This document shows positions 1 to 10,234 of a stretch of 32,803 nt of DNA, in pieces. The first letter of the stretch is position 1, and each line of letters starts with the position of its first letter. The notes beneath the pieces are model-generated. The model was not told the origin of the DNA, ran no database searches, and was given only the letters and a program-made list of their open reading frames with translations. The stretch lies in NCBI GenBank assembly GCA_029252325.1, contig JAQXBQ010000080.1, forward strand, positions 1 to 32,803, read 5' to 3'. The stretch comes from Akkermansiaceae bacterium (GTDB taxonomy: Bacteria > Verrucomicrobiota > Verrucomicrobiia > Verrucomicrobiales > Akkermansiaceae). The translations under genes and the position numbers were made by a program.

Positions 1-449
1 GAGATCGACGCCACCGTAGATCCACCCGCAAGCAAGCGGATATCATAACCCGAAAACCCGGGGCGCCCGCCGGCGTCATGATCCCCGATCGCAACCGTCA
101 TGGTATAGAGGTTTCCGACCACAATGGAATCGCCCAGAGTCTGGCTGACACCACCATTATTAATAGTAAACAGGGCCTGGTTACCGTCCATATCACCAAT
201 CGTTCCGCCACTGGGGTTGGCATCGTCTGCGTCGGCAGTTGTGTAGCGGGCACCTGCATTAAAATTAATCGTGCCGAGGATACCGCCGAGATTGGTCCAA
301 CCCGTAGGCGTGGCTACAGATAAACCACCGTCTCCTCCTTGATCATCGGCTTGAAAGCTGAAATTGGTGATGGCGATCGAGGCCCCCTGGGAAGCCGTGG
401 TAACAGCGAACAGCCCGGCGAAGATGAAATGTGGAATTTTTGTTTTCAT
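1..449 (-). CDS. Exported protein, truncated at window edge (N-terminal part only)
   Basis: Open frame read by hand on the minus strand from ATG at 449: MKTKIPHFIFAGLFAVTTASQGASIAITNFSFQADDQGGDGG...LYTMTVAIGDHDAGGRPGFSGYDIRLLAGGSTVASI, open to base 1. Signal-peptide-like N-terminus. Missing from the ORF track because it has no stop in the window. Confidence 0.8.
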   Translation of the reverse strand, partial: MKTKIPHFIFAGLFAVTTASQGASIAITNFSFQADDQGGDGGLSVATPTGWTNLGGILGTINFNAGARYTTADADDANPSGGTIGDMDGNQALFTINNGGVSQTLGDSIVVGNLYTMTVAIGDHDAGGRPGFSGYDIRLLAGGSTVASI

Positions 450-579
450 AGAGCTTGTTCTTAATTAATTTAATTTGTGAACCATTGATTTCAGCAGTTC
501 TTATATTGATTAATGTTCCGCGGAGGGAAAACGTATCCTATTTTGTGAAAAAAAAGTTGTTTTCCCAGATGGGTGATCA

Positions 580-1938
580 TTATTCGCTGCTTTGACGCAG
601 TCTGGAGGCTTTCAGATTGCAGAAATCCAAGTAGGCGTTTCCTTTTTTTGAGGCGCGTGCAGAAATCCGGAGGGATATAGGCGCGCCTGATTCCACTCCA
701 GCTGGTAGCTTGCTTGAATCCCAGCTGATATTGATCCGTGCAAAGTCGTTGGGAGCGCAGTGAGTAGATTTCCGAGTCTCTGAAGCGAGAATGGTTTCTC
801 CAGAGACCAGGGCGATCTCATAATCGCTGAGATATCTTTGATTCAGTTTTTCGATTCTCACCCCAATCGTCAGCCCGACTGCGTATAGACAGTTTGCTTT
901 GATGTGATCGATTTTTCGTTCAATGGAGGCCTGAGAGCTGGTGACTAAAAAGCCTAGGTTGGGGCTATTCATGAAGGGCGCTTCACCGCTGCTGGCACTT
1001 CGGTCATTGAGCGCGGGGTGATCATACCAGCGTCCCGTTCCTGCAGGGTTGTAGATTCCCAAAGTAAGGCTTTTACCATCAATCGTCAATGAAGGAGGGA
1101 ACTGCTCACTGATGTTGCCATCCGGGATGCGGTAGGAAGCAAAGGGGTCTTCAAATAAAAGGTCCACTTGTTCAGGGAGATCGGCTTGGAAGCTATCATC
1201 AGCGTAGTCGATGGGCTTCAAGGAGCGGTTGTCATCAATAGCGCAGGCTTCTTTGGTGACGATCGATCGGCCACCTCCAAAAAGCGGAGAGACGATGACT
1301 TCTCCGGTTTTCACATGAAGTTCATCGTAATCCCGCCAAGAAGAAATGACAGTAAACTCGGTGCCCATGTCGATGGCCTTTAAACGGGGCGTGATCACTT
1401 GGAAACCGACTCCGTCCTCGGAGACTTGGAAGCTGGCTTTGCCTTTATCGAGGAGAAGGGTTTGTTCATCCCGGATTCTGAGAACGGCTGGCCCTATCAC
1501 GGTAGCGGTGACATTACGGGGGAGTTTGAGTTCGACCGCTCCGTAGTCCACGGTGAGTTGTTGGCCAACTTCCAGACGGTTATCGGACTTTGACCCTTCG
1601 ATTGAGAAAGAGGTGTTTTGGGCAAATTGGAGACCAGCGGAGGGAGGCTGGGCGGAGGTGTGGATGAAGAAAGCCGCCGCCAGGAGAATGAGGAAGCAGG
1701 CGGCGGAATACCAGAATATGGGTGCAAGCCGGGCAGGTTTTTGTTCCAGATCCTTTAGGGAGTGGATGGTGACGGCTTGATCTTTCTCGAGGAGCCGATC
1801 GAGCATGATGTAATCCAAGTAAATCTCTCGCGTCTCGGGGTCACTCAAAAGTAGCTGCTCAAGCTCTTGTTGCTGGGCAGGAGACAGGTCGCCGTCGAGG
1901 AGTCTGAGGACGAGCTCGTTTTTATGATCAGAGTTCAC
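580..1938 (-). CDS. FecR-domain membrane regulator with large C-terminal extracytoplasmic domain
   Basis: Within ORF 580..2247. The N-terminal part of the track ORF overlaps the sigma factor gene and looks like noise. A GTG at 1938 is in frame (MNSDHKNELVLRLLDGDLSPAQQQELEQLLLSDPETREIYLDYIMLDRLL), followed by a TM helix (FWYSAACFLILLAAAFFIHTS) and a FecR-like segment (VELKLPRNVTATVIGPAVLRI...GKASFQVSEDGVGFQVITPRLKAIDMGTEFTV). Confidence 0.82.
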   Translation of the reverse strand: MNSDHKNELVLRLLDGDLSPAQQQELEQLLLSDPETREIYLDYIMLDRLLEKDQAVTIHSLKDLEQKPARLAPIFWYSAACFLILLAAAFFIHTSAQPPSAGLQFAQNTSFSIEGSKSDNRLEVGQQLTVDYGAVELKLPRNVTATVIGPAVLRIRDEQTLLLDKGKASFQVSEDGVGFQVITPRLKAIDMGTEFTVISSWRDYDELHVKTGEVIVSPLFGGGRSIVTKEACAIDDNRSLKPIDYADDSFQADLPEQVDLLFEDPFASYRIPDGNISEQFPPSLTIDGKSLTLGIYNPAGTGRWYDHPALNDRSASSGEAPFMNSPNLGFLVTSSQASIERKIDHIKANCLYAVGLTIGVRIEKLNQRYLSDYEIALVSGETILASETRKSTHCAPNDFARINISWDSSKLPAGVESGAPISLRISARASKKGNAYLDFCNLKASRLRQSSE

Positions 1939-2458
1939 TGCTTTGGAGTTGTTGATTGATGCATTCTTTGAGTTGAAAGCGGAGGCGGCGCATAGTGTTG
2001 CGAAGAGTACCTGGGTTTTTGCCGTGTTTCTGGGAATATTGTTCGATGGAGAGATTGCGGCTGTAGCGGTATTTGATGAGTTCGCGATTGGCAGGCGATA
2101 TCTTTTGCAAACAGAGATCGAGAGCCTTCCGCTTATCTTCCATGGTGTCATCTTCAAAGATGCTTTCCTTGGCCAGTATTTCCAAGACTTGGTCATCGAA
2201 GGGAAGGATACGGTCGCGTTTGAGCTTGCGGCGCTCGTTGAGGGCATGGAATTTGGCGGTTTGGAAAGCCCACGCTTTGAAATTCGAGCCAGTTTGGAAG
2301 TCGTCCCTCTTATTCCAGAGGGTTAAATTCACTTCTTGGAGGAGTGAATCGGAGTCGGCATGAGCGGGGAGCAGAGCCCTGAGAAAGAAGCCAAGGGCCA
2401 TTTGGTGCTTGGTAAGTTCTTGGACAAACTCCGTTTCTTTGTCAGGCGTTTCAGACAT
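1928..2458 (-). CDS. ECF-like sigma-70 family RNA polymerase sigma factor (Rhodopirellula/Verrucomicrobium type)
   Basis: 176 aa, MSETPDKETEFVQELTKHQMALGFFLRALLPAHADSDSLLQEVNLTLWNKRDDFQTGSNFKAWAFQTAKFHALNERRK; regions 2 and 4 recognisable; overlaps the following FecR-like gene. Confidence 0.88.
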   Translation of the reverse strand: MSETPDKETEFVQELTKHQMALGFFLRALLPAHADSDSLLQEVNLTLWNKRDDFQTGSNFKAWAFQTAKFHALNERRKLKRDRILPFDDQVLEILAKESIFEDDTMEDKRKALDLCLQKISPANRELIKYRYSRNLSIEQYSQKHGKNPGTLRNTMRRLRFQLKECINQQLQSSEL

Positions 2459-2802
2459 CTACAAGGTGAATATATAATATATGTGCTTAGATGCAAAAAT
2501 GTCGTGGGAAAAGACGTTTTTTTTGATGAGTATTGGAGTTGTTGGTGTGGCGGGATCGTGGGTCGTTACTTGGTGGAAATTTGTGCAGTCCTTCGTCCCG
2601 ATCATGACCGAGTGAAGGCCTCACTTTAAACCCCCATCACTTTGCGACTAAGTCCTTCACCATTTACGACAGCTGAATCCTCCTTCACCAGTGCCAACCC
2701 TTTATCTACAGCAAAAACACCCTCGCTTGCTAAACGGGCAAAAATTCAAGACTGGAAAAATAGAAATTTAAGCGACAATCTCCGAGTATTAATAAGCACC
2801 GC

Positions 2803-3753
2803 ATGAAACTTACAGGATTTGCCGACGAAGCAGCACCCGATCTCGCCACCCAAATCAAGGCGACCCAAGAACTGGGCTGGCAGCACATTTCCGCGCGCGG
2901 CATCGACGGCAAAAACATTCACGACCTGAGCGAGTCGGAATTCGACACTGCTTATGGTCAGCTCGAAGATGCTGGTATCCAAATCGCCGAGTTCGGTTCG
3001 CTGATCGGCAGCTGGTCGAAAACCATCGACAGCGACTTCGCCCTAACCCTCGGTGAAGTCGAGCGCTGCATTCCCCGTATGCAACGCCTCGGCACGCAAA
3101 TTGTGCGCGTCATGTCCTACGCGCAGGAGCCATGGGGTGAAGACCAGCACGAGCAGGAACGCTTCCGCCGACTCCGTGCCATCACTGCACGCTTCAGTGA
3201 TGCGGGTCTTACCACCGCTCATGAGAACTGCATGAACTGGGGCGGCTTCTCAAGCAGCCACACCCTGCGTCTGATCGAGGAAGTGCCCGGGCTGAAACTC
3301 ATCTTCGACACCGGCAACCCAGTATTTCAAAGGGACCGATCTTGTAGCCCGCTTGCACTCCCTTCGGTCGCCCGCTCGGATAGCCCGCTTGCACTCCCTT
3401 CGGTCGCCCGCTCGGAGGGACAAAAATCGTCGTCGAGTTCATACCCCTGGCAAGATGCTTGGCAATTTTTTCAAGAGGTGCGCGACCACATCATCCACAT
3501 CCATATCAAGGACTGTCGTAATCCGTTGAATGATGAGGTAGAACCTCAATACGTCTTCCCCAGTGAGGGCCAGGCCTACATCCCCGCCATCCTCGCCGAT
3601 CTCAAACAATCAAACTACCAGGGTTTCATCGCCATCGAGCCTCACGTCGCCACCGTCTTCCACGCCAAGGCCGATGATGTTGATTGGGATCAATGCTATC
3701 GCAGTTACATTGAATACGGACGCTCACTGGAAAGTCTCATTAGCGACAACTAA
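2803..3753 (+). CDS. Sugar phosphate isomerase/epimerase (xylose isomerase-like TIM barrel) carrying a repeat-derived insert
   Basis: 316 aa; MKLTGFADEAAPDLATQIKATQELGWQHISARGIDGKNIHDL, LKLIFDTGNPVF, HIIHIHIKDC, GFIAIEPHVATVFHA are typical of the family. Confidence 0.88.
   Translation: MKLTGFADEAAPDLATQIKATQELGWQHISARGIDGKNIHDLSESEFDTAYGQLEDAGIQIAEFGSLIGSWSKTIDSDFALTLGEVERCIPRMQRLGTQIVRVMSYAQEPWGEDQHEQERFRRLRAITARFSDAGLTTAHENCMNWGGFSSSHTLRLIEEVPGLKLIFDTGNPVFQRDRSCSPLALPSVARSDSPLALPSVARSEGQKSSSSSYPWQDAWQFFQEVRDHIIHIHIKDCRNPLNDEVEPQYVFPSEGQAYIPAILADLKQSNYQGFIAIEPHVATVFHAKADDVDWDQCYRSYIEYGRSLESLISDN
3345..3416 (+). repeat. Two perfect tandem copies of a 36-bp unit inside the isomerase gene
   Basis: tagcccgcttgcactcccttcggtcgcccgctcgga at 3345-3380 and again at 3381-3416, encoding SPLALPSVARSD/E twice in frame. 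Confidence 0.95.
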
Positions 3754-3781
3754 CAAAAATTAATCCATTACAATAACAAAC

Positions 3782-4591
3782 ATGAAACTCACATTCCTCC
3801 TCTCACTCACAGCGATCATCGGCATTTCACATGCGCATGATTGCAACACCCTCGAGACACTTCAAACAGGCAGTATTGATGCTGCCACTACTACCGTCAA
3901 CAAGCAGTTGCTGCTCGAAAAGGTGGACCTGACAAAACTCCAGGAACTCGGCTTCAAGTCTCTGATTGGAGCCAGCCTAGACGACTGGAAAATCCACAAC
4001 GACAAACCCGAGGTTACGTTTACCCTCAAGGACGGCGTCATTTCCGGCGCCTGTGAAAACCTCAAAGGTAACTCCTTCCTCTACACCGCCAAGGAATACG
4101 ACAGCTACCTACTCTATTTTGAATTCCGCTTTGACCACCTCAAGGGCAACTCCGGCCTGATGTATCACTCGAAATACAACGACGCTAAAAAATTCGCTGG
4201 CATCCAATTCGAGATGGATCAGAAGAAACGCCATTGGACCGGCCTGCTCTACGCGGAAAACCTCGGTGGCTGGCACTACCCGAACCGCGATGGCGCTGCC
4301 GGCAAAGAAAAAGCCAGCAAGGAAACCATGCGTGAGCTCTCCAAAATCGGGCGAGAGGCTTTCAACCCGACTGGGTGGAACGCCGGCTTCATTCGCATCC
4401 ACGGCAATGAGATCCAGACCTGGCTTAATGGCAGGCTGCGCACCGACTACACATGGAAAGTCGACAACTTCCCTGGACAAGGCTCTATCGCCCTCCAGAT
4501 TCACGGTGGTAAATCCTGTGCCGTCTCATGGCGAAACCTCTACTTATTGCCACTCGAGGGCAACAGCAAGCCCAGCCAGCCCAACGAGTAA
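3782..4591 (+). CDS. Exported DUF1080 (3-keto-disaccharide hydrolase) domain protein
   Basis: 269 aa; signal peptide MKLTFLLSLTAIIGISHAHD; SLDDWKIHNDKPEVTFTLKDGVISG...YLLYFEFRFDHLKGNSGLMYHSKYND...GIQFEMDQ pattern; starts 28 bp after the isomerase gene. Confidence 0.85.
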   Translation: MKLTFLLSLTAIIGISHAHDCNTLETLQTGSIDAATTTVNKQLLLEKVDLTKLQELGFKSLIGASLDDWKIHNDKPEVTFTLKDGVISGACENLKGNSFLYTAKEYDSYLLYFEFRFDHLKGNSGLMYHSKYNDAKKFAGIQFEMDQKKRHWTGLLYAENLGGWHYPNRDGAAGKEKASKETMRELSKIGREAFNPTGWNAGFIRIHGNEIQTWLNGRLRTDYTWKVDNFPGQGSIALQIHGGKSCAVSWRNLYLLPLEGNSKPSQPNE

Positions 4592-7406: not shown

Positions 7407-7600
7407 CGTTCATTATGGGTTCACACGATCATTCGATTAACATCCCAGTTGCCGATTTCATGCAAAAAAAATGAGCTTTTTTTCTATAATGCAACAATGT
7501 CCCTACGCTATGTTCATATTACAATCTAGCCCCACTTGGTAAAAAGTTATCACCCTTTGAATATTACCCGCGGCTCAGCATCATCCACTTTGCAACACTC

Positions 7601-10234
7601 ATGAAAACCACCATCTTCTTTTTAATGACTACACTCTGCTCCCCGCTGAGTGCTCAGATGCTTCTACCAGAAAATGGGCTACCCGAATACGAGCAGGATA
7701 TTGATCACGCGAAGCTGATCAAACGCATTGATAAAAAGACCATCCAGCAAGGGCGCAAAATTTACGACAACGTCTGTATGAACTGCCATGGTAACCTCAA
7801 AGAGGTGGGATCCATCCCCACATCGCTTCGCTTTGGCCAAGGCCAATTCCAGCACGGTAGTGACCCTCACACGATGTATCAGACCATCACCCGCGGCTGG
7901 CGTGCGATGCCTCCCCAGCCCCAACTCACCCCGCGTGAAAAATACGCGGTTATTCACTACATCCGGGATCAATATCTCAAAAAGCACAACCCCTCGCAGC
8001 TATCCAAAGTCACCGCTGACTATTTGGAAAAACTTCCCAAGGGCAAAAGTCTCGGACCCAAGCCTACCTCAAGTAATGCCGCGGAGCCATGGACCGAGAT
8101 GGACTACGGCAGCTTCCTGATTAACACTTACGAAATCGCCTCTGAGCAAGATCGTAAAAAGGCGGGCAACGGAGATCAGATCGCCCCTGATGCGAATCTC
8201 GCATACAAAGGCATCGCACTGCGTCTCGACCCGGGTGAGGGTGGTGTCAGCAAAGGAAATACTTGGTCGATCTTCGAGCACGATTCCATGAGGGTTGCTG
8301 GCGTCTGGCAGGGTGATGGTTTTATTGACTGGAAAGGTGTTCACTTCAACGGCAAGCACGTCGTCCGGCCGCGCACCATCGGCACGCCCACCCTCGAAAC
8401 CAAGGACGAACCCGGCTGGGCCAATCCGGACACAGGAAGCTTTGATGACCTGCGTTTTGAGGGATCTGACGGGATTCGCTATGGTCCACTGCCACGGCAA
8501 TGGGCGCACTACAAAGGCCTCTACAAGCATGGTAGCCAAACCATTATCAACTACTCCATCGGGGATGCTGACATTCTCGAGAGTCATGAATTAGCCACCG
8601 ACGGCGCGTTTGTCCGCCAACTCAACATCGGCAAGTCCAGCAAAGCACTCACACTTCGGATTGCGCCAAGCTCGCAGAAACTCAAACAGTCAGGAGCAAG
8701 CCCATCAAAGTTAAGCAGTGCCGATGGCTACTGGATCATCACCTTCTCCCCGGAATCCACACCGTTGAAGGTCGCCTTCACGATCGGCAGTGAGATGAAA
8801 GTCCCCGCTAAGGACCTCAGCCTACTCACCCAAGGAGGCCCGGCCCAGTGGTCCCAGACCCTCACCGCGCCGGTAACCCGTGGCAACCAACCGGGAGCTT
8901 TCCAGTGGGATCACTTCGATGTGCCAACCGATGCACAGTGGAACAGCCGCCTTCGCACCTCTGGCTTTGACTTCACACCTGATGGAAAATCCATTATCGT
9001 ATGCTGCTGGGATGGCGACGTCTGGAAAGTCGATGGTTTCACCGATCCTCATGCCACGGAGACAACCTGGAAGCGCATCGCTTCCGGCTTGTTCCAGCCG
9101 CTGGGATTAAAAATCGTCAAGGGCAGAATCTTTGTCACCTGCCGTGATCAAATCGTCGTTCTCAATGACCTCAATGGCGACGGAGAAACCGACTTCTATG
9201 AGAATTTCAATAGTGACGCTCAAGTCACCAATCACTTCCACGAGTTCGCCATGGGGCTGCAGGCCGATGACCAGGGTAACCTTTACTACGCCCGCAGTGC
9301 CCGTCATGCACGCCCACCACTCGTACCTCACCACGGCACCCTGCTGAAGGTTAGTGCCGACGGCTCCCATACTGAGATTCTGGCACACGGCTTCCGTGCG
9401 GCCAATGGTGTCTGCCGCAATCCGGACGGCACCTTCTTCGTCACTGATCAGGAGGGTCACTGGAACCCGATGAACCGAATCAACCACGTCACTGCCGGCA
9501 ACAACTTCTACGGCAACATCTGGAGCTACGGAGCTCCCGAGGACACCTCGGATGCCGCCATGGAGCAACCCCTCTGCTGGGTAGCCAAGAGATTCGACCG
9601 CTCCCCTGCTGAGCTACTCTGGATTGACAGTGAGAAATGGGGGGCCTTCAACGGCAAACTCATCCACCTATCCTACGGTCACGGACGCCTCTCACTCGTT
9701 CCTCATGAGACTATTGATGGCAAAAAACAAGGAGGGCTGATCCGCTTTCCCCTTCCCGACCTCGCTACCGGCGTGATGCGCGGTCGCTTCCACTCCGGTA
9801 CGAGTGGTGACGGCCAGCTCTACACCTGCGGTATGGCTGCCTGGTCCACCTCACAATCCAAGAAGCAAGGAGGTCTTTTCCGGATTCGCTATACCGGAAA
9901 ACCTGCCTACCTGCCCATCGACATCTCAGCCCACCAGAAAGGTATCAGCATGACATTCTCCGAGCCACTTGACCCAGCCAGCGTTAAACCTGAGGCACTC
10001 AAGATCAGTACTTGGGCCTACAAGCGCAGCAAAAGCTACGGATCTAAGCACCTTGACGAGAAAACCCACCCGATCACATCAACCAGCCTCAGCCCAGACG
10101 GAAAAACCCTGACTTTCCAAATTGCTGAGCTTAGCACCTGCTGGCAGATGTCGATTAATTACAAGCTTAAGGCCAAAGACGGCTCAGCAGTCACCGGGGA
10201 GATCCAGAACACCATCCACACTCTCAAACCCTGA
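7601..10234 (+). CDS. Exported cytochrome c / DUF6797-like / beta-propeller (PQQ-type sugar dehydrogenase-like) protein
   Basis: 877 aa; signal peptide; heme motif CMNCH near the N-terminus; propeller-like C-terminal half (FDFTPDGKSIIVCCWDGDVWKVDGF, GFRAANGVCRNPDGTFFVTDQEGHWNP). Confidence 0.8.
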   Translation: MKTTIFFLMTTLCSPLSAQMLLPENGLPEYEQDIDHAKLIKRIDKKTIQQGRKIYDNVCMNCHGNLKEVGSIPTSLRFGQGQFQHGSDPHTMYQTITRGWRAMPPQPQLTPREKYAVIHYIRDQYLKKHNPSQLSKVTADYLEKLPKGKSLGPKPTSSNAAEPWTEMDYGSFLINTYEIASEQDRKKAGNGDQIAPDANLAYKGIALRLDPGEGGVSKGNTWSIFEHDSMRVAGVWQGDGFIDWKGVHFNGKHVVRPRTIGTPTLETKDEPGWANPDTGSFDDLRFEGSDGIRYGPLPRQWAHYKGLYKHGSQTIINYSIGDADILESHELATDGAFVRQLNIGKSSKALTLRIAPSSQKLKQSGASPSKLSSADGYWIITFSPESTPLKVAFTIGSEMKVPAKDLSLLTQGGPAQWSQTLTAPVTRGNQPGAFQWDHFDVPTDAQWNSRLRTSGFDFTPDGKSIIVCCWDGDVWKVDGFTDPHATETTWKRIASGLFQPLGLKIVKGRIFVTCRDQIVVLNDLNGDGETDFYENFNSDAQVTNHFHEFAMGLQADDQGNLYYARSARHARPPLVPHHGTLLKVSADGSHTEILAHGFRAANGVCRNPDGTFFVTDQEGHWNPMNRINHVTAGNNFYGNIWSYGAPEDTSDAAMEQPLCWVAKRFDRSPAELLWIDSEKWGAFNGKLIHLSYGHGRLSLVPHETIDGKKQGGLIRFPLPDLATGVMRGRFHSGTSGDGQLYTCGMAAWSTSQSKKQGGLFRIRYTGKPAYLPIDISAHQKGISMTFSEPLDPASVKPEALKISTWAYKRSKSYGSKHLDEKTHPITSTSLSPDGKTLTFQIAELSTCWQMSINYKLKAKDGSAVTGEIQNTIHTLKP

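Follow-up and report, generated by a model that had tools for sequence, protein, structure and literature searches.

Homologous HpiC1-like modules in a FecR-type regulator and its exported neighbour at a sigma/FecR locus of an Akkermansiaceae bacterium

The sigma/FecR locus and its exported neighbour

The window, that is, the whole stretch of 32,803 nucleotides analysed here, is a single contig (C225) of an Akkermansiaceae genome of 2.49 Mb assembled in 285 contigs and 96% complete. Read on the minus strand from position 2458 downward, it carries the gene of an ECF sigma factor, the gene of a FecR-family regulator, a gap of 130 bases, and the gene of an exported protein that runs off the contig. 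The features of the locus are as follows.

1928–2458, minus strand: ECF sigma factor of the Rhodopirellula/Verrucomicrobium family (NCBIfam TIGR02989, Pfam Sigma70_r2)
580–1938, minus strand: FecR-family regulator of 452 aa, with a GTG start overlapping the sigma stop (Pfam FecR, lineage FecR profile, gene order)
1663–1719, minus strand: probable single membrane-spanning helix of FecR, residues ~74–92, FWYSAACFLILLAAAFFI (read by eye from the sequence)
610–1155, minus strand: outer HpiC1-like jelly-roll module of FecR, residues ~262–443 (Pfam, profiles, predicted structure)
513–534, minus strand: promoter-like element ACG-N14-AACAT upstream of the exported gene (sequence match to the spaced element of genomes G190 and G160)
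3–449, minus strand: exported protein with a signal peptide and an HpiC1-like module, 149 aa seen, cut by the contig end (Pfam PF22825)
3–380, minus strand: HpiC1-like module of the exported protein, incomplete, profile positions 2–119 of 174 (Pfam PF22825, PDB phmmer)

The sigma factor matches NCBIfam TIGR02989 with E = 2e-45 and 154.6 bits, above the cut-off of 124.55. The regulator scores 19.7 bits against Pfam FecR, for which the cut-off of 24 is passed by related FecRs, and it matches a FecR profile built from related loci with E = 1.2e-96.

The closest matched relative of the exported protein, from genome G190, is a 232-aa PEP-CTERM protein with the C-terminus VPEPSSIALLGLGGLALILRRKK; the window's gene runs off the contig short of its own C-terminus, and no overlapping contig that would complete it was found in the same assembly. 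An exosortase is encoded in the window's genome. The G190 locus is intact and contains, in a row, the sigma factor, the FecR with its HpiC1 module, the HpiC1 PEP-CTERM protein of 232 aa, and a SASA-HpiC1-GDSL protein of 1135 aa. Another contig of the window's genome (C78, positions 1–3899) encodes a secreted protein that combines GDSL, SASA, and HpiC1 domains; its gene is cut off where the contig begins and is followed by that of a LamG-like PEP-CTERM protein. By its likeness to G190, this contig could be the continuation of the window locus; the two contigs cannot be joined.

Beside the locus, at positions 3345–3416 of the window, there is a perfect 2 × 36-base tandem, TAGCCCGCTTGCACTCCCTTCGGTCGCCCGCTCGGA, of which no further copy was found in the genome. 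It lies in frame in a sugar-phosphate isomerase-like ORF (2803–3753, plus strand) and encodes SPLALPSVARSD/E repeats.

Family, fold, and ancestry of the two modules

The first-pass annotation had noted a likeness of about 35 residues between the outer domain of FecR and the exported protein encoded beside it. Both peptides are where they had been placed, but the likeness extends over about 180 residues, that is, over the whole domain. When the two window proteins were compared with each other by BLASTP, no significant match resulted (E = 1.2), so the 35-residue alignment made by eye proves nothing by itself, and profiles were substituted for the direct comparison.

The exported protein matches the Pfam family PF22825 (HpiC1-like) over profile positions 2–119 with E = 4.5e-18 and 66.3 bits, the cut-off being 27 bits. 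The outer domain of FecR reaches E = 9e-6 and 26.3 bits by hmmscan, 0.7 bits under the cut-off, and 28.2 bits in a six-frame search; against a profile of 20 other HpiC1-like domains together with the exported one, its residues 262–439 score 36.8 bits. In the opposite direction, the truncated exported protein matches a FecR-type profile from which the window and G190 rows had been removed with 29.5 bits (E = 2e-7). The comparison of the two sets of domains by hhalign is highly significant (99.8% probability, E = 1.2e-27) and covers the whole domain.

The structural predictions are in agreement with the profiles. A phmmer search of the PDB with the exported module gave 6a8x (E = 4.8e-4) and 6a98 (E = 1.7e-3). 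AlphaFold modelled the window's FecR domain with a pLDDT of 93 and the intact exported domain of G190, taken because the window copy is truncated, with a pLDDT of 92. Both models rank Stig cyclases first among PDB matches (E = 3.6e-11 and 3.5e-14, respectively), followed by the folds of CBM4, CBM22, CBM16, CBM61, and the porphyran- and alginate-binding CBMs. At the level of profiles and predicted folds, it is thus confirmed that the outer module of the window's FecR and the module of its exported neighbour belong to a common HpiC1-like family (Stig cyclase or CBM-like jelly-roll), as the resemblance first noted had implied.

It had also been supposed that FecR acquired its domain by copying from its own neighbour. 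A tree of 64 HpiC1-like modules places the two window modules in separate groups and rules this origin out: the FecR module lies within a FecR-only clade of nine modules (SH-aLRT 100), beside the FecR of G190 (87), and the exported module groups among exported proteins of G168, G179, and G190. Judged by their positions in the tree, the two modules are old relatives and not recent copies. At another HpiC1 locus, L204, the modules of FecR and its partner are sisters (91), and there the FecR module was likely copied from its neighbour.

The pairing of HpiC1 with HpiC1 seen in the window is common to one sister locus, that of G190. FecRs of the same clade in G160, G201, G147, G153, and G195 have PEP-CTERM neighbours without HpiC1, and next to two long FecRs of this clade (L106 and L107) the neighbour matches the middle module of FecR, not HpiC1. 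The FecRs at L103, L105, L106, and L107 are long (755–813 aa) and combine a middle module that varies between them with a C-terminal HpiC1 module that is constant. At L334 (G195, 7538–9908), a FecR of the window's HpiC1 clade is split into two frames near its C-terminus, with the FecR core and the HpiC1 part in separate overlapping ORFs, so this gene may be a pseudogene or contain a sequencing error.

Matched modules and promoter-like elements in other sigma/FecR loci

At L107, the middle segment of the long FecR resembles the whole domain of the adjacent PEP-CTERM protein (49% over 228 aa), and on this basis all gathered FecR loci were tested. The outer parts of 111 FecRs were compared by phmmer with every other ORF of their own locus and of all other loci. 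At E < 1e-10, 16 of the 903 same-locus pairs matched, compared with 71 of 94,113 other pairs; at E < 1e-5, a match in their own locus was found for 13 of the 111 FecRs, while 20,000 shuffles averaged 1.5 and never exceeded 7. For PEP-CTERM partners alone, the corresponding values were 10/100 within loci and 30/8,447 elsewhere.

A second, independent set was assembled from named genomes with duplicates removed. Since the pooled FecR-core alignment proved too diverse, a narrower FecR set was used to scan genome contigs; the named relatives recovered with the FecR profile were mostly Akkermansiaceae MAGs, Haloferula, Rubritalea, and Luteolibacter, plus Planctomycetota. In this set, which is biased toward one FecR subfamily because of the narrower profile, 5 of 45 FecRs were matched (0.18 after shuffling, maximum 3), including one at a Planctomycetota locus (L294).

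Taken over both sets at E < 1e-3, 20 of 156 FecRs of the sigma (TIGR02989)/FecR type are matched, in at least 12 module clusters, and the remaining 136 have no detectable match in their own locus; these rates are rough, since the loci are interrelated and some contigs are short, and the shuffles do not remove kinship. The largest module cluster (LamG-like, 82 FecRs) accounts for two matches. The expectation that the same pattern would be met in other sigma/FecR loci is thus borne out, with other module families and far above shuffles, so that what stands of the first-pass annotation is the real likeness and a general idea broader than HpiC1, and what falls, by the tree, is the copying at the window.

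Within matched loci, the identity between modules ranges from 27 to 63%. The partners are PEP-CTERM proteins, often together with a large secreted protein that combines the module with a SASA carbohydrate esterase, a GDSL lipase, or a metallophosphoesterase domain. A further matched locus lies on another contig of the window's genome (L213, contig C19, 14830–18765); there, the PEP-CTERM partner is 43% identical over 180 aa to the outer module of FecR. In the module family of L203, L213, L162, and L223, the modules from FecRs group in a single clade (99) across genera and those from PEP-CTERM proteins and enzymes intermix, which indicates that the pairing is old and has been kept, not repeatedly re-made.

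In one same-genus genome, G143, which has 17 FecR matches genome-wide, several paralogous sigma/FecR units (L184 and L186 among them) stand in tandem in one stretch (C2, 206500–260500), and it is possible that this stretch is a site of channel multiplication.

The intergenic regions of these loci contain promoter-like elements, that is, sequence patterns picked out after inspection, which are candidate promoters. In the divergent loci L203, L213, L223, L209, and L224, two opposed TGTTAACG-type elements lie between sigma and partner, one 31–42 bases before the sigma gene and one 21–127 bases before the partner gene; both are found within a gap of 250 bases at L213, the copy at L219 is less exact, and L204 has a single element of this type. 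Before ordinary ORFs of the same loci, GTTAACG occurs in 21 of 1,167 cases.

In G190 and G160, which hold the closest relatives of the window's FecR, a different pattern of the form ACG-N14-RACAT, here ACG-N14-GACAT, precedes the sigma gene and the PEP-CTERM gene alike with identical spacing; the background is 16 of 1,535 ORFs. The window has the corresponding element before the exported gene, and none was seen before its sigma gene. A single universal promoter element was considered and rejected: GTTAACG characterises one group of loci and is missing from both the window and G190, and a strict form of the other element, ACG-N14-RACAT-N4-CTAG, is not enriched in the window's genome (one match, and one for the control). 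Overall, the paired elements before sigma and partner genes suggest that the sigma factor drives both.

Shared-ligand sensing, its rivals, and known systems

Because the modules are homologous, matched pairs recur across module families, and spaced elements precede both sigma and partner genes, we consider it rather probable that the locus is a cell-surface sensing unit that reads the same type of ligand, presumably a glycan, as its exported proteins. The ECF sigma factor would be held by the FecR-type membrane protein, for which the gene overlap and the family point to a role as anti-sigma factor and sensor. On its outer face, FecR would expose a carbohydrate-binding-like module, and a like module is carried by the secreted neighbour and, in relatives, by an esterase or phosphoesterase. 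The ligand would probably be a glycan, either from the matrix or from algal material. Its binding outside the cell may cause FecR to release or activate the sigma factor, which would then transcribe its own operon and the gene or genes for exported proteins that bind or modify the ligand, using the predicted elements. Several observations weigh against this reading: the 136 unmatched FecRs, the mere two matches in the LamG-like cluster, the same-clade FecRs whose neighbours lack HpiC1, the neighbours at L106 and L107 that match another module, the missing element before the window's sigma gene, and the truncation of the exported gene.

A wider proposal can be put forward only tentatively: Verrucomicrobiota and Planctomycetota may possess families of sigma/FecR pairs whose interchangeable outer modules are matched to the controlled PEP-CTERM protein and esterase. 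Such pairs would work in parallel as insulated channels, with each regulator reading either the ligand of its outputs or the output protein as such.

The pairing at the window locus may instead be a coincidence, given that modules such as HpiC1-like and LamG-like ones are common in the secreted proteins of these bacteria and a FecR of this clade could have come to lie beside one by chance. We retain this explanation because several FecRs of the clade have neighbours without HpiC1; of the FecR loci that adjoin a PEP-CTERM gene, about 7% have one with HpiC1, irrespective of the module of FecR, same-clade FecRs are mostly unmatched, and the HpiC1 tree shows no specific relationship between the two window modules. 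Nevertheless, it seems unlikely, if deserving of some weight, since the window's genome has four HpiC1-like matches in all, two of which are the window neighbours, the matched arrangement is met again in G190 with two HpiC1 partners, an HpiC1 PEP neighbour is found in 3 of 9 cases for FecR-HpiC1 and in 3 of 74 otherwise (Fisher p = 0.015, window included), and the general pattern is far above chance in both locus sets.

Neutral duplication, in which proximity alone copies modules into nearby genes and the pairing has no regulatory meaning, would fit the single-locus cases L152, L165, and L153 as recent local events; the FecR clade that spans genera at L203, L213, L162, and L223 speaks for a pairing that has been kept, and the promoter-like elements tie the partner to the sigma genes, which makes this explanation improbable. 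We regard as very unlikely a homotypic contact, in which the exported module would bind the FecR module and FecR would monitor its partner, for example as an unprocessed PEP-CTERM protein in the inner membrane. Both modules would face the periplasm, where such a protein would be membrane-anchored, an exosortase is present in the genome, and partners are matched by module family in many loci; however, the predicted fold is a known ligand-binding, CBM-like one that needs no homotypic contact, and the esterase partner bears the module too.

The shared-ligand model resembles the SigI/RsgI systems of Clostridium thermocellum, in which RsgI proteins are membrane anti-sigma factors with outer modules such as CBM3, PA14, and GH10 that sense polysaccharide and control secreted enzymes; the outer GH10 module of RsgI6 is 57% identical to Xyn10D, whose gene is driven by sigma-I6 (PMC4711584). 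In both cases, the outer module of the regulator resembles a module of exported proteins, with control in window-type loci suggested by the promoter-like elements. The window-type loci differ in having a TIGR02989 ECF sigma factor and a FecR-type membrane protein, and in that the partner adjoins the regulator and is a PEP-CTERM protein and/or an esterase of Verrucomicrobiota or Planctomycetota. Pfam scans of the window's and related FecRs found FecR and no RsgI_N domain; the parts are not homologous, and the likeness is therefore one of working and not of membership.

In FecI/FecR iron-citrate signalling, an ECF sigma factor is likewise paired with a FecR membrane regulator, and the signal reaches FecR from a TonB-dependent transducer. 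The FecR of the window differs in that its outer part ends in a ligand-binding-like module, and plain inspection of the neighbourhood showed no TonB receptor.

The matched-module arrangement is recurrent and apparently undescribed in the literature searched, in which we found no paper linking FecR, PEP-CTERM, and Verrucomicrobia or ECF sigma factors (subscription journals and preprints were outside its scope). These phyla have numerous paralogous sigma/FecR pairs without an assigned signal, along with many PEP-CTERM proteins without an assigned role. With a rule of matching modules, the exported proteins under the control of each sigma factor, and the recognition of one target by regulator and output, could be predicted by sequence alone, and the rule would carry the logic of clostridial biomass sensing over to an unrelated regulator family.

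Finally, HpiC1 and the other Stig cyclases (PF22825) share family and fold with both window-type modules, whereas they are stand-alone enzymes of hapalindole biosynthesis. At the site corresponding to residue 214 of the PDB cyclase, the window's FecR has Cys and the G190 partner has Asp; an enzymatic use of the window-type modules as cyclases appears unlikely.
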